Below the pieces are notes generated by a model. That model did no database searches. It had not been told where the DNA came from and saw nothing but the letters and a program-made list of their open reading frames with translations. Shown here one piece after another: positions 60,391-64,000 of a DNA stretch of 64,000 nucleotides. The stretch comes from Leptotrichia sp. oral taxon 847 (GTDB lineage Bacteria; Fusobacteriota; Fusobacteriia; Fusobacteriales; Leptotrichiaceae): contig NZ_CP014231.1 of assembly GCF_001553645.1 (NCBI RefSeq), positions 1,364,001 through 1,428,000 of the forward strand. The letters run 5' to 3'. Every line of letters begins with the position of its first letter. Within the stretch, counting starts at the first letter, position 1. The position numbers and the translations under genes are program-made.

Positions 60391-61020
60391 ATGAAAACAA
60401 AAAGAATGATTACAATGGCAATAGCAGCAATAGTTCTAGGAAGTTTTTCAGTGAGTTATGCAGCATCAAGAAATGCGAGAAGAACTAGACAAAATACCAC
60501 AAAAACAACTAAGGTTTCTAAAAACTCTCCTAAATTAGTTGAGTCAAAAGATTATACTTGCGGAAGTAGTAATTTAAAAGCTGATTTTTTTGACAATGAT
60601 ATAGCAAAAGTAAAAGTTGGAAAAAAAGTCTATAATTTGAAAAGAGCAGTTAGCGCTAGTGGAGAATATTTTGAAGACGGAAAAGGAGTGAGCCTTCATG
60701 TAAAAGGGGATGAAGGAGTATTTACAGTTGGAGGAGTCGATAAAAGCTGTGAAGTTGCTGGCAAAAAATCAACATCTGAAAAACAAGCTGTAACTTATAG
60801 ATTAAATGATGAAACTTTAAAAAATAGAAATATTAAAGTTGAATATGGAAATGATACAGCAAAAGTAACTGATTTTAACGGAGATGTTCATAATTTAAAA
60901 AGAGCAAAAAGCGCAAGTGGAATGTATTTTGAAGATACTGATGGAGTAAGTCTTCACGTAAAAGGAAAAGAAGGAATATTTACAATATCAGGAGTAGATT
61001 ATTCTTTTGAACAAAAATAA
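60391..61020 (+). CDS. Exported protein with two tandem MliC-like (lysozyme inhibitor) domains
   Basis: 209 residues: signal peptide (KRMITMAIAAIVLGSFSVSYA), a basic Arg/Thr/Lys linker to about residue 50, then two repeats. Domain 1 (about 54-122) has YTCGSSNLKADFFDNDIAKVKVG, LKRAVSASGEYFEDGKGVSLHVKG and a closing Cys. Domain 2 (about 133-209) repeats LKRAKSASGMYFEDTDGVSLHVKGKEG but lacks both cysteines. The SASGxYF signature and layout match the MliC/PliC inhibitors of c-type lysozyme. No lipobox is seen, so it is probably periplasmic or secreted. It sits alone between inverted repeats. Inhibitor activity is inferred from the fold. Confidence 0.75.
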   Translation: MKTKRMITMAIAAIVLGSFSVSYAASRNARRTRQNTTKTTKVSKNSPKLVESKDYTCGSSNLKADFFDNDIAKVKVGKKVYNLKRAVSASGEYFEDGKGVSLHVKGDEGVFTVGGVDKSCEVAGKKSTSEKQAVTYRLNDETLKNRNIKVEYGNDTAKVTDFNGDVHNLKRAKSASGMYFEDTDGVSLHVKGKEGIFTISGVDYSFEQK

Positions 61021-61117
61021 TTTTATGACTTTTAGCAAAAAGTTGTGAGGTCTTATAATTCAAGGATAAATTGTACAAAATTTTTGACAAAATCTTTGAT
61101 TGTTAAAATATTTTTAT

Positions 61118-61163
61118 AAAACTGTTTTGAAATAGTCTGAAGCTTTTTTGAAACAGTTTTTTT
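61118..61163 (+). terminator. Terminator after the MliC gene
   Basis: AAAACTGTTT (61118-61127) pairs with AAACAGTTTT (61151-61160), followed by TTT. Near-copy of the hairpin at 59814-59860. Confidence 0.75.
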
Positions 61164-61237
61164 GCATCTAAAAAGAAATAAAAAAATAGTAGCTGTAGTG
61201 TAAAAACATGATGTATTCCTAACAAGTGATGATTTTA

Positions 61238-61350
61238 TACTAAACCCCATTTGGATAACGAATATATTATAAATCTTTTTAGCAGAGTAAACCTAATATT
61301 TATTTTCAAATAATTAAAACAAATATTCGCTTTTTAAATGGGAAATAGTA
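61238..61350 (-). repeat. 113-bp MITE-like repeat, copy 2 (inverted)
   Basis: Reverse-complement copy of 59870-59982, same length, about 10 differences by eye. It begins TACTAAACCCCATTT and ends AAATAGTA on the plus strand. Together the two copies bracket about 1.25 kb holding the MliC gene and its terminator. Confidence 0.75.
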
Positions 61351-61529
61351 TTAAAATAAGAGTATGGTTAAAATTAAGAAAAATAATTTTAAATAAATAA
61401 AAAATCTTTTTTATTAAAAAAATAAAAAAATATTTGTGTAAAACTAGTGATTTAGATAAATTTTTAGATTAATCTTTAAAAAATAAATAAAAAAGTTGTA
61501 TATTTTTTAAAATTTCTTAGAAAAAGTAC

Positions 61530-61557
61530 TTGTTTTTTTTTTTTTTTGTGCTAAAAT
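61530..61557 (+). promoter_or_regulatory. Autotransporter promoter with a T15 tract in its spacer
   Basis: TTGTTT (61530-61535) and TAAAAT (61552-61557) are 16 nt apart, and the spacer lies almost wholly in a run of 15 T (61533-61547). Length change of the run would alter the spacing. A leader of about 150 nt follows. The stretch 61351-61529 before it is AT-rich and shows nothing else. Confidence 0.55.
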
Positions 61558-61708
61558 TAGAGAGTAAGATAAAGATTTTTTATAGAAAGCGAAAAAATTT
61601 TGAATTATCACTCACTCATTAAAAAAAACTATTCCTTAATTTTTTTACTTTCAGAAAAATTTTTAAAATACAAAAAATATGTGAAAAAATTTTTGAAAGG
61701 AAATCATT

Positions 61709-63625
61709 ATGGGAAGCAATAATTTAAAACAACTCAAAAAAGATTTGAAAGCTTTTGCCAAAAGAGTAAAAGACTTTAAATACACAGAATCAGCGCTGAT
61801 TGCATTCCTTTTGACAGGAATGGTAATGCTTGGCGTTTCAAATTTAACATTTTCTGCTCAGGATGAGATAACAGCTCAGACTAAGCAAATAAATAGCTCA
61901 ATAAGCGATATAAGACAGCAGTTTAAAAGAGCTAGAGCTGAAAATAATAAATTACTTAGAGATACAAATTTAGAATTAATACAGCTTATGGAACAAGGAG
62001 ATCAAGTAGTGAAATCGCCTTGGAGCAGCTGGCAATATGGAATAAATTATTTTTATAATGACTGGCATGGACATTATAGAGGCAGAGGGGACAAGATAGA
62101 CAGCTTTGTCTACAAAAGAGATGACTCAATCGTAAACAGAAGCGTTTACCCAGGAAAAATTGAAACAAAATACGGAGCAACAACATTAGGACTGGTAAGA
62201 GAGCCAAATGCCGCAATGGACGTATCAGCAGCACTGACACCAAAGAGCGTAGATAAAGTGGCACCAAGATTTACAGTACAAGGAGCAGGAGGAGGCTTTC
62301 CAAATTTTGCAACAAGAGTAGTAAAGGCGCCAGAAGCGCCAAGTGCTCCAATAAGTCCTAGTATAACTGTAAATCAAGCACCAGTAATAACGTTTCAGGC
62401 ACAAGGATTTGGGCAAGGTAGAGATGCGGAACTACATGGAGATCAAGGAATACATTTAATGAATTTTTCTAATTATACAGCCACAGGAATTGCTAATTTT
62501 AATGTAACCAATAATACGTCTACTCTAACTTCAGGTTCAATTACTTATGATCCTTTAAATCTAGGAGCATTATCTATGAGTCCAGGAGTTTCTGCTACGC
62601 CTCACTCAGCAATTCCTGCTGGAACAATATCAGCTACTGATACAATGACTATAGCTTCTAATCCTTACAATCCAGATGGTATTATGAATGCGGTATTTAG
62701 TCATGTAGTTCCTATGAATGTTACTATGACGGGAAATTATTCCCTTAATTCGACTGCAGATCATAATATATTATTTATAAGTGTTAATCCTTATGACTAT
62801 TATGAAACGGCAGGAGATAAAACATTTAAGTTTAATGGAAATGTTACTTTAAATAGTAATGGTGGAAGTTCTGTAGTTGGAATAGAGCATCAACTATTAA
62901 ATGGTAATGGAGGTGGAGGAGCTAATCCAGTTAATCAAGTAGTTTCTAGTGTTGAAAATAATGGAAATATTACATTAGGTAGTGGTTCATATATGATAGG
63001 TATGATGATTGATACTGAATATTATGGAGTTTCATCACATAATAAATTTAATAAAAATCCTAAGACGGATAATAATGGTAAGATTATTATTAGTGGTGAT
63101 GCTAAAAATAGTATTGGTATTGATTATGGGTTTTATGCTTTAGATTCAACTAAAAAAGGGCCTAATAGTTCAGTAAGAATAGGAGATATCATAATTGACG
63201 GTAAAAAAAGTTATGGGTATAGACAAAAAGATTATACAAATTCAGTTGCTCCTGCGGGAACTCCTTCTTCAAAAGGAGATATTTATTACGATGAAATGTC
63301 AACAGTTGATGGTGGAAATGGGTCAATCATATTAAATGGAGAAGAAAATATAGGAATGGCTATCTTCCAAGGAAAAACTACAGGAGATCCTATTGATAAT
63401 TTTAAAAATATAAATATTAAAGTTGGAGGTTCAAAAAATATTGGTTTTTTAAGAGGAACGCCTGATAACGGTTATTCAAATGGTAATGATATAACATTAG
63501 ATGGTACAAAATTAAGTGCAATTGGATTTGGAGGAAGTTATACAGATGCTTCTGGAACAAAACAAGATATAACTGTTGGAGATGACAACGCTCTTATAAG
63601 AAGTGAAAAAATAAGATTAAATTAG
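61709..63625 (+). CDS. Autotransporter (type V) adhesin-like protein, N-terminal part, frame interrupted
   Basis: 638 codons before a TAG. The N-terminus (LKQLKKDLKAFAKRVKDFKYTESALIAFLLTGMVMLGVSNLTFSA) is an extended signal region seen on Leptotrichia autotransporters. A helical stretch with EITAQTKQINSSISDIRQQF follows, then a long Gly/Asn/Ser/Thr-rich beta-helix passenger with GNITLGSGSYMIGMM- and GIAI-like repeats. No beta-barrel is reached. The passenger continues without loss in the -1 frame after an A6 run at 63605-63610, so the stop reflects a frame break. AAAGGA precedes the ATG. Ligand and function are unknown. Confidence 0.85.
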   Translation: MGSNNLKQLKKDLKAFAKRVKDFKYTESALIAFLLTGMVMLGVSNLTFSAQDEITAQTKQINSSISDIRQQFKRARAENNKLLRDTNLELIQLMEQGDQVVKSPWSSWQYGINYFYNDWHGHYRGRGDKIDSFVYKRDDSIVNRSVYPGKIETKYGATTLGLVREPNAAMDVSAALTPKSVDKVAPRFTVQGAGGGFPNFATRVVKAPEAPSAPISPSITVNQAPVITFQAQGFGQGRDAELHGDQGIHLMNFSNYTATGIANFNVTNNTSTLTSGSITYDPLNLGALSMSPGVSATPHSAIPAGTISATDTMTIASNPYNPDGIMNAVFSHVVPMNVTMTGNYSLNSTADHNILFISVNPYDYYETAGDKTFKFNGNVTLNSNGGSSVVGIEHQLLNGNGGGGANPVNQVVSSVENNGNITLGSGSYMIGMMIDTEYYGVSSHNKFNKNPKTDNNGKIIISGDAKNSIGIDYGFYALDSTKKGPNSSVRIGDIIIDGKKSYGYRQKDYTNSVAPAGTPSSKGDIYYDEMSTVDGGNGSIILNGEENIGMAIFQGKTTGDPIDNFKNINIKVGGSKNIGFLRGTPDNGYSNGNDITLDGTKLSAIGFGGSYTDASGTKQDITVGDDNALIRSEKIRLN

Positions 63626-64000
63626 ACAAGTCTATAAATACTTCTGTAGACACAGGAAAAAGAAATTCAATATTACAGGCTGTAAAAGATGGTAAAGTTT
63701 CAACAACCACAAGTGGTAAAATAACAGTTACTTCTGGAGATACTGTTTATGGTGTAACAGCAGGGTTTGATAGTGGTGGAGCTGCTGAACTGGAAACAGC
63801 AGGAGATATTGATATGACTGCTAAAAATAGTATTGGAATAGCAGTAGATACTGGAAGAACAGGAATTAATACTGCAAGCAAGGTTACTATGACAGGGAAA
63901 AACAACACTGCTATTTACAATTTAGGAACATTTAGCCAAGAAGGAAATATCACTGTCGACGGAGAAAAATCTAACGGAATTTTTAACACAGGAACATTTA
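63606..64000 (+). CDS. Autotransporter passenger continuation (other frame, runs off the window)
   Basis: From the A6 run onward the -1 frame is open to the window edge. It reads on smoothly as passenger (LDKSINTSVDTGKRNSILQA, then GDTVYGVTAGFDSGGAAELE, SIGIAVDTGRTGINTASKVT, NTAIYNLGTFSQEGNIT). The repeats of Gly-Ile/Asn-Gly type match the upstream part, so it is the same protein. An A7 run would give a continuous gene. There is no start codon or ribosome site at its beginning. The translocator domain lies beyond the window. Confidence 0.75.

Follow-up and report, generated by a model that had tools for sequence, protein, structure and literature searches.

RESULTS

An autotransporter locus with a 15-nt T tract

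The window, the 64-kb stretch of DNA analyzed here (G000:C1:1364001-1428000), belongs to a 2.19-Mb single-contig Leptotrichia genome. Toward its end, a gene encoding a protein with MliC-like domains is followed by a large autotransporter gene (Table 1). Since a strong terminator-like hairpin lies 3′ of the MliC-like gene, the autotransporter gene is probably transcribed as a separate unit. The first open frame matches fuso_auto_Nterm at 167.6 bits, against a cutoff of 55, which places it in that family. The frame changes at 63600 to 63625, beside a short A run, and the 1,525-aa second frame is 84% identical to residues 844 to 2184 of an intact 2,184-aa paralog. That paralog carries a PF03797 beta-domain; in the window's gene, the C-terminal part is in the other frame and falls past the window's end. 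The break near 63.6 kb could be a mutation, a second slippage site, or a sequencing error. In this assembly, what the window's promoter drives may be a broken gene. The open frames of the paralogs at 297 and 2084 kb are likewise short, at 348 and 740 codons, and intact copies exist. The first-pass annotation, which described a large surface autotransporter, overlooked the break. The adhesin RadD (NF049908) was considered and rejected as an identity: the intact paralog scores 648 bits against an equivalog cutoff of 3,500 and is related to RadD without being RadD.

A homopolymer of 15 Ts occupies exactly 61533 to 61547, between the predicted −35 and −10 elements as first described, and its end lies 161 nt before the ATG. 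It is indeed the longest homopolymer in the window and the sole run above 9 nt; the second-longest runs, of which there are seven, are 9 nt. Markov models of window composition predict about 0.07 to 0.24 T runs of at least 15 nt per 64 kb (0.07 to 0.39 for A runs), so that the T15 tract by itself is only modestly improbable.

Table 1. Features of the autotransporter locus (window coordinates)
Feature	Position	Strand	Basis
Upstream gene, 209 aa, MliC-like lysozyme-inhibitor domains; neighbor, outside the proposed switch	60391..61020	+	PF09864, E = 6e-17
Terminator-like hairpin 3′ of upstream gene	61118..61160	+	−14.8 kcal/mol, z −3.55, then T run
Conserved block TTTCTTAGAAAAAGTAC immediately 5′ of −35	61513..61529	+	Same or near forms in paralogous promoters
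−35-like hexamer TTGTTT, last three Ts shared with tract	61530..61535	+	TTG invariant, 20 aligned promoters
T15, proposed hypermutable spacer	61533..61547	+	Direct reading, run table; T13 to T18 in eight paralogs
Extended −10, TGC-TAAAAT	61549..61557	+	TATAAT-like hexamer, predicted spacing 15 to 18, 20 aligned promoters
Leader motif CACTCACTCA	61609..61618	+	Aligned in leaders
Ribosome-binding-like AAAGG	61696..61700	+	Direct reading
First open frame, 638 aa, fuso_auto_Nterm domain	61709..63625	+	NF033175, 167.6 bits; ORF
Autotransporter continuation, different reading frame, 1,525 aa in all, runs past window end	63607..64000	+	84% identity to paralog

The tract fills the spacer of a conserved predicted promoter

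Spacer length matters in sigma-70 promoters, about 17 nt being optimal, and an extended −10 element lessens a promoter's dependence on its −35. Ordinary sigma-70 rules seem applicable in this genome, since TTGACA-N15..19-TATAAT occurs 40 times (7 times for the reversed pattern), with spacers mostly of 16 to 18 nt. In the window, the tract extends from the predicted −35 hexamer to just short of the predicted −10, and T15 gives a predicted spacer of 16 nt, near the usual optimum. Twenty homologous promoters from four species were aligned. In all 20, TTG is invariant, a hexamer resembling TATAAT is present, and the predicted spacer measures 15 to 18 nt, so the repeat sits between predicted −35 and −10 elements, the position expected of a phase-variable promoter with a spacer repeat. 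Promoters with uninterrupted tracts cover the range of 15 to 18; homologs in which the tract is interrupted or absent have predicted spacers of 16 to 18, mostly 16 or 17 (the spacer of G006_1979 is 17 when read from TTG). An A-rich block directly 5′ of the −35 is also conserved in the alignment, and in this genome each of the nine tract promoters has TG one base 5′ of the −10 (TGN).

This promoter had been called the only convincing one before the gene. A consensus scan of 61000 to 61760 gave no help with that claim: it listed 6 sites against 6.3 in shuffled sequence, no excess and uninformative in so AT-rich a region, and the T15 promoter was not listed, since its −35 agrees with TTGACA at just 3 of 6 positions. 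Judged by sequence comparison, it is conservation across the 20 aligned homologs that makes the predicted promoter convincing.

The leader motif CACTCACTCA occurs in the leaders of eight members of the autotransporter family (the window's gene and seven paralogs) and at one coding site elsewhere in the genome. The leaders aligned without a consensus fold, and the window's leader contained no significant hairpin; CACTCACTCA was therefore left as a sequence motif. An Rfam search of 60 to 64 kb returned no match.

Long tracts recur in nine paralogous promoters and differ in length

The genome, examined by pattern searches and in selected stretches, contains 11 strong fuso_auto_Nterm (NF033175) matches, and in nine of these genes the corresponding spacer slot holds an uninterrupted T13 to T18 (T16, T13, T14, T17, T16, T15 [window], T17, T16, and T18). 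One of the other two carries T9-C-T7; the other, whose promoter region is different, has just T8. A search of both strands of the genome for A/T runs of at least 10 nt found 33, and their lengths were bimodal: 18 of T10, 2 of T11, 1 of T12, and 12 of T13 to T18. Autotransporter spacers account for 9 of the 12 A/T tracts of 13 nt or more. Chance is no explanation for this concentration on paralogous autotransporters, and the long tracts look like a separate class centered on one gene family instead of the tail of an AT-rich background. Nine of 11 surface-protein paralogs thus carry the same tract in their promoters, which is the arrangement of a multigene switch of the vlp kind.

Some of the paralog promoters are clearly duplicated, so the paralogs are not fully independent. 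In the group at 204, 232, and 249 kb, the tracts are 16, 13, and 14 nt, while the 170 nt on the 3′ side are identical and about 120 nt on the 5′ side contain 1 to 3 substitutions. The pair at 486 and 2084 kb has tracts of 16 and 18 nt, with a single substitution in 290 nt. T19 and T18 stand in the two best G006 copies. Tract length therefore differs between near-identical flanks, as expected of phase-variable promoters, here among paralogs of one assembly. Such differences would fit slippage in a functional promoter, with the qualification that the comparison is between paralogs of one assembly and not between sibling cells.

Errors of homopolymer consensus could in principle have produced the tract lengths or their differences; long homopolymers are error prone, and the frame break near 63.6 kb adjoins a short A run. 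This explanation is very improbable, however, because the window's other long frames look intact, with open reading frames covering about 86%, and because G006, G010, G042, and G050 also have long tracts in this slot. Given that recurrence, the tract itself is real, although a length could be wrong by 1 or 2.

The tract could also act by a graded route, in which it makes the spacer stiffer or bent or changes how the upstream A tracts align with the core promoter, so that output would change by degrees without an off switch. The extended −10 in nine of nine tract promoters, the narrow 15-to-18 range of predicted spacers, and the A-rich block directly 5′ of the −35 are compatible with such a rheostat, as is the multiphasic output produced by T tracts of different lengths at sabA (PMC4081817). 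The sabA tract, however, adjoins the −35 outside the spacer, whereas the Leptotrichia tract lies within it, and we consider a rheostat of this type a minority possibility. The same extended −10 bears on spacer control itself: with this element in every tract promoter, tuning of expression is as likely as on/off switching. Several points weigh against control by spacer length: the variation is between paralogs only, tract length may matter little to a promoter with an extended −10, most other Leptotrichia species have no long tract 5′ of these genes, poly-T close to a −10 is found at metabolic genes too, and the window's gene is itself out of frame.

Distribution of the tract in Leptotrichia and other Fusobacteriota

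Genes matching NF033175 were found in all 13 Leptotrichia genomes compared. Only the window's genome (nine genes) and G006 (T19, T18, and T12) often have a long tract in this slot; G010 has a single T17 there, and G009 has the T9-C-T7 version. Most other Leptotrichia species lack long tracts 5′ of NF033175 genes, although for about one-third of the upstream regions in other species the absence of tracts of at least 12 nt comes from a coordinate comparison and not from base-by-base reading. A strain-level comparison, with one genome per species, gave two distant Leptotrichia loci among genome contigs and none among viral contigs.

Across 98 Fusobacteriota genomes, the pattern CTTGN-T11+ occurred at 14 sites, against 1 for the reversed control. 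Twelve of the 14 lie 5′ of autotransporter genes of three architectures. Ten of these are NF033175 genes; the others, both in another family of the same order, are a 3,085-aa YadA-type trimeric adhesin (G050) and an autotransporter with an OmpA domain (G042). Of the remaining two sites, one has no clear target nearby and one falls within an opposite-strand gene. The looser pattern T12-N1..5-TATAAT also occurs singly 5′ of ordinary metabolic genes, which means that poly-T close to a −10 does not on its own identify a surface gene.

These distributions bear on a neutral reading, in which T-rich spacers are ordinary in an AT-rich genus and the tract was duplicated with the paralogs and drifts without regulatory effect. 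Intergenic long poly-T is present in 12 of the 13 Leptotrichia genomes, mostly not 5′ of autotransporters, and short T-rich spacers are common 5′ of NF033175 genes in other species, as that reading would have it. It accounts poorly for the 40 canonical promoters, whose longest spacer T run is about 8 nt, for the clustering of long tracts on one gene family, and for CTTGN-T11+ upstream of autotransporters of other architectures in another family. We therefore regard the neutral reading as unlikely.

Several other long tracts were observed. In L184 (G009:C1:393358), T18 followed by GTTATATAAT lies about 200 nt 5′ of a gene that by eye resembles aconitase, so surface genes are not alone in having a long tract near a −10. 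The sequence GATAATTGTC, or a close form, followed by T15 to T23 is conserved between genes in six other Leptotrichia species (L091, L092, L093, L106, L108, and L114 [near position 1500]). On the sides checked, no open reading frame of 100 aa was present within 450 bases of these tracts, and the two searched against Rfam gave no match; read on the other strand, each is an A tract 5′ of a possible promoter. Tracts L030 (T18, genome position 1499530), L094 (T16), and L112 (T12), from three species, lie about 50 nt 5′ of a gene on the other strand for a conserved 339-aa protein (MGFINPFQIYS...); a protein similar to the MliC-like one is encoded about 520 nt past the T18 tract at 1499530. A/T tracts of at least 12 nt at G009:C1:1689213, G011:C1:1842361, and G012:C1:506765 stand beside genes for an 820- to 835-aa protein that matches NF033175 only at its first 38 positions.

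DISCUSSION

A T run whose length would change by slippage probably controls the sigma-70-type promoters of this autotransporter family. In the proposed mechanism, the run is a hypermutable spacer common to the promoters of the large autotransporter genes, and slipped-strand mispairing during growth would add or remove Ts. The distance from the −35 (TTGNNN) to the extended −10 (TGN plus a TATAAT-like hexamer) would then shift within 15 to 18 nt. If transcription tracks this spacing, each autotransporter would be turned up or down independently, yielding a population with mixed surface types. The anatomy of the promoter, its recurrence in nine of 11 paralogs, and the unequal tracts between almost identical flanks were read directly from the genome. 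The first-pass annotation had proposed a phase-variable promoter. Comparison upheld the spacer position and added length differences among near-identical sister promoters; the nine-gene system, the frame break, and the extended −10 had been missed.

More tentatively, and with slightly more doubt than confidence, we suggest that CTTG-Tn-(TG)N-TATAAT may be a recurrent Fusobacteriota design, a slippage-driven spacer serving several autotransporter architectures, with nine independent loci that could generate combinatorial surfaces in this Leptotrichia. If so, it would be the first homopolymer phasome for Fusobacteriota.

The tract is a real feature, wider in extent than first noted, and most likely an example of surface-gene promoters under slippage control, a known kind for which we did not find a Fusobacteriota case described. 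A literature search that took in few subscription journals returned no description of phase variation or homopolymer promoters for Leptotrichia or Fusobacteriota. If the proposal is correct, it would supply a family-wide surface-protein switch that can be read from sequence, in a phylum for which we found no slippage-driven promoter described, and it would help account for the retention of about 10 very similar autotransporters by Leptotrichia. Because deep sequencing can read tract lengths, the idea is directly testable. In meningococci, homopolymers of at least 8 nt are mostly variable in reads from single colonies (PMC5084427), and by analogy instability of T13 to T18 tracts here is plausible.

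Several characterized systems resemble the Leptotrichia promoters in part. In Bordetella, the length of a C stretch in the fim2, fim3, and fimX promoters alters transcript level (PMC1891110); there too a homopolymer recurs across several paralogous surface-subunit promoters, although it is poly-C and the effect is framed as a change in distance between the activator-binding region and the −10. At Helicobacter pylori sabA, a T tract of similar length lies adjacent to the −35 of a surface adhesin promoter, and changes in its length alter transcription (PMC4081817). Membership in that rheostat class calls for a tract outside the spacer, and the Leptotrichia tract fills the spacer. The Mycoplasma mycoides vmm promoter does have a repeat within the spacer of a surface gene, but its units are dinucleotides and a single gene is involved (Persson 2002, as cited in PMC10502178). 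According to the same source, every vlp gene of Mycoplasma hyorhinis has a poly-A tract in its promoter region, and random insertions and deletions in it switch transcription (Citti and Wise 1995, cited in PMC10502178); the mechanism proposed for Leptotrichia would resemble this one. The vlp genes are poly-A-tract lipoprotein genes of a mollicute in which switching has been demonstrated, whereas switching in Leptotrichia is inferred; what the two have in common is a family of surface proteins whose members each have a homopolymer in the promoter.
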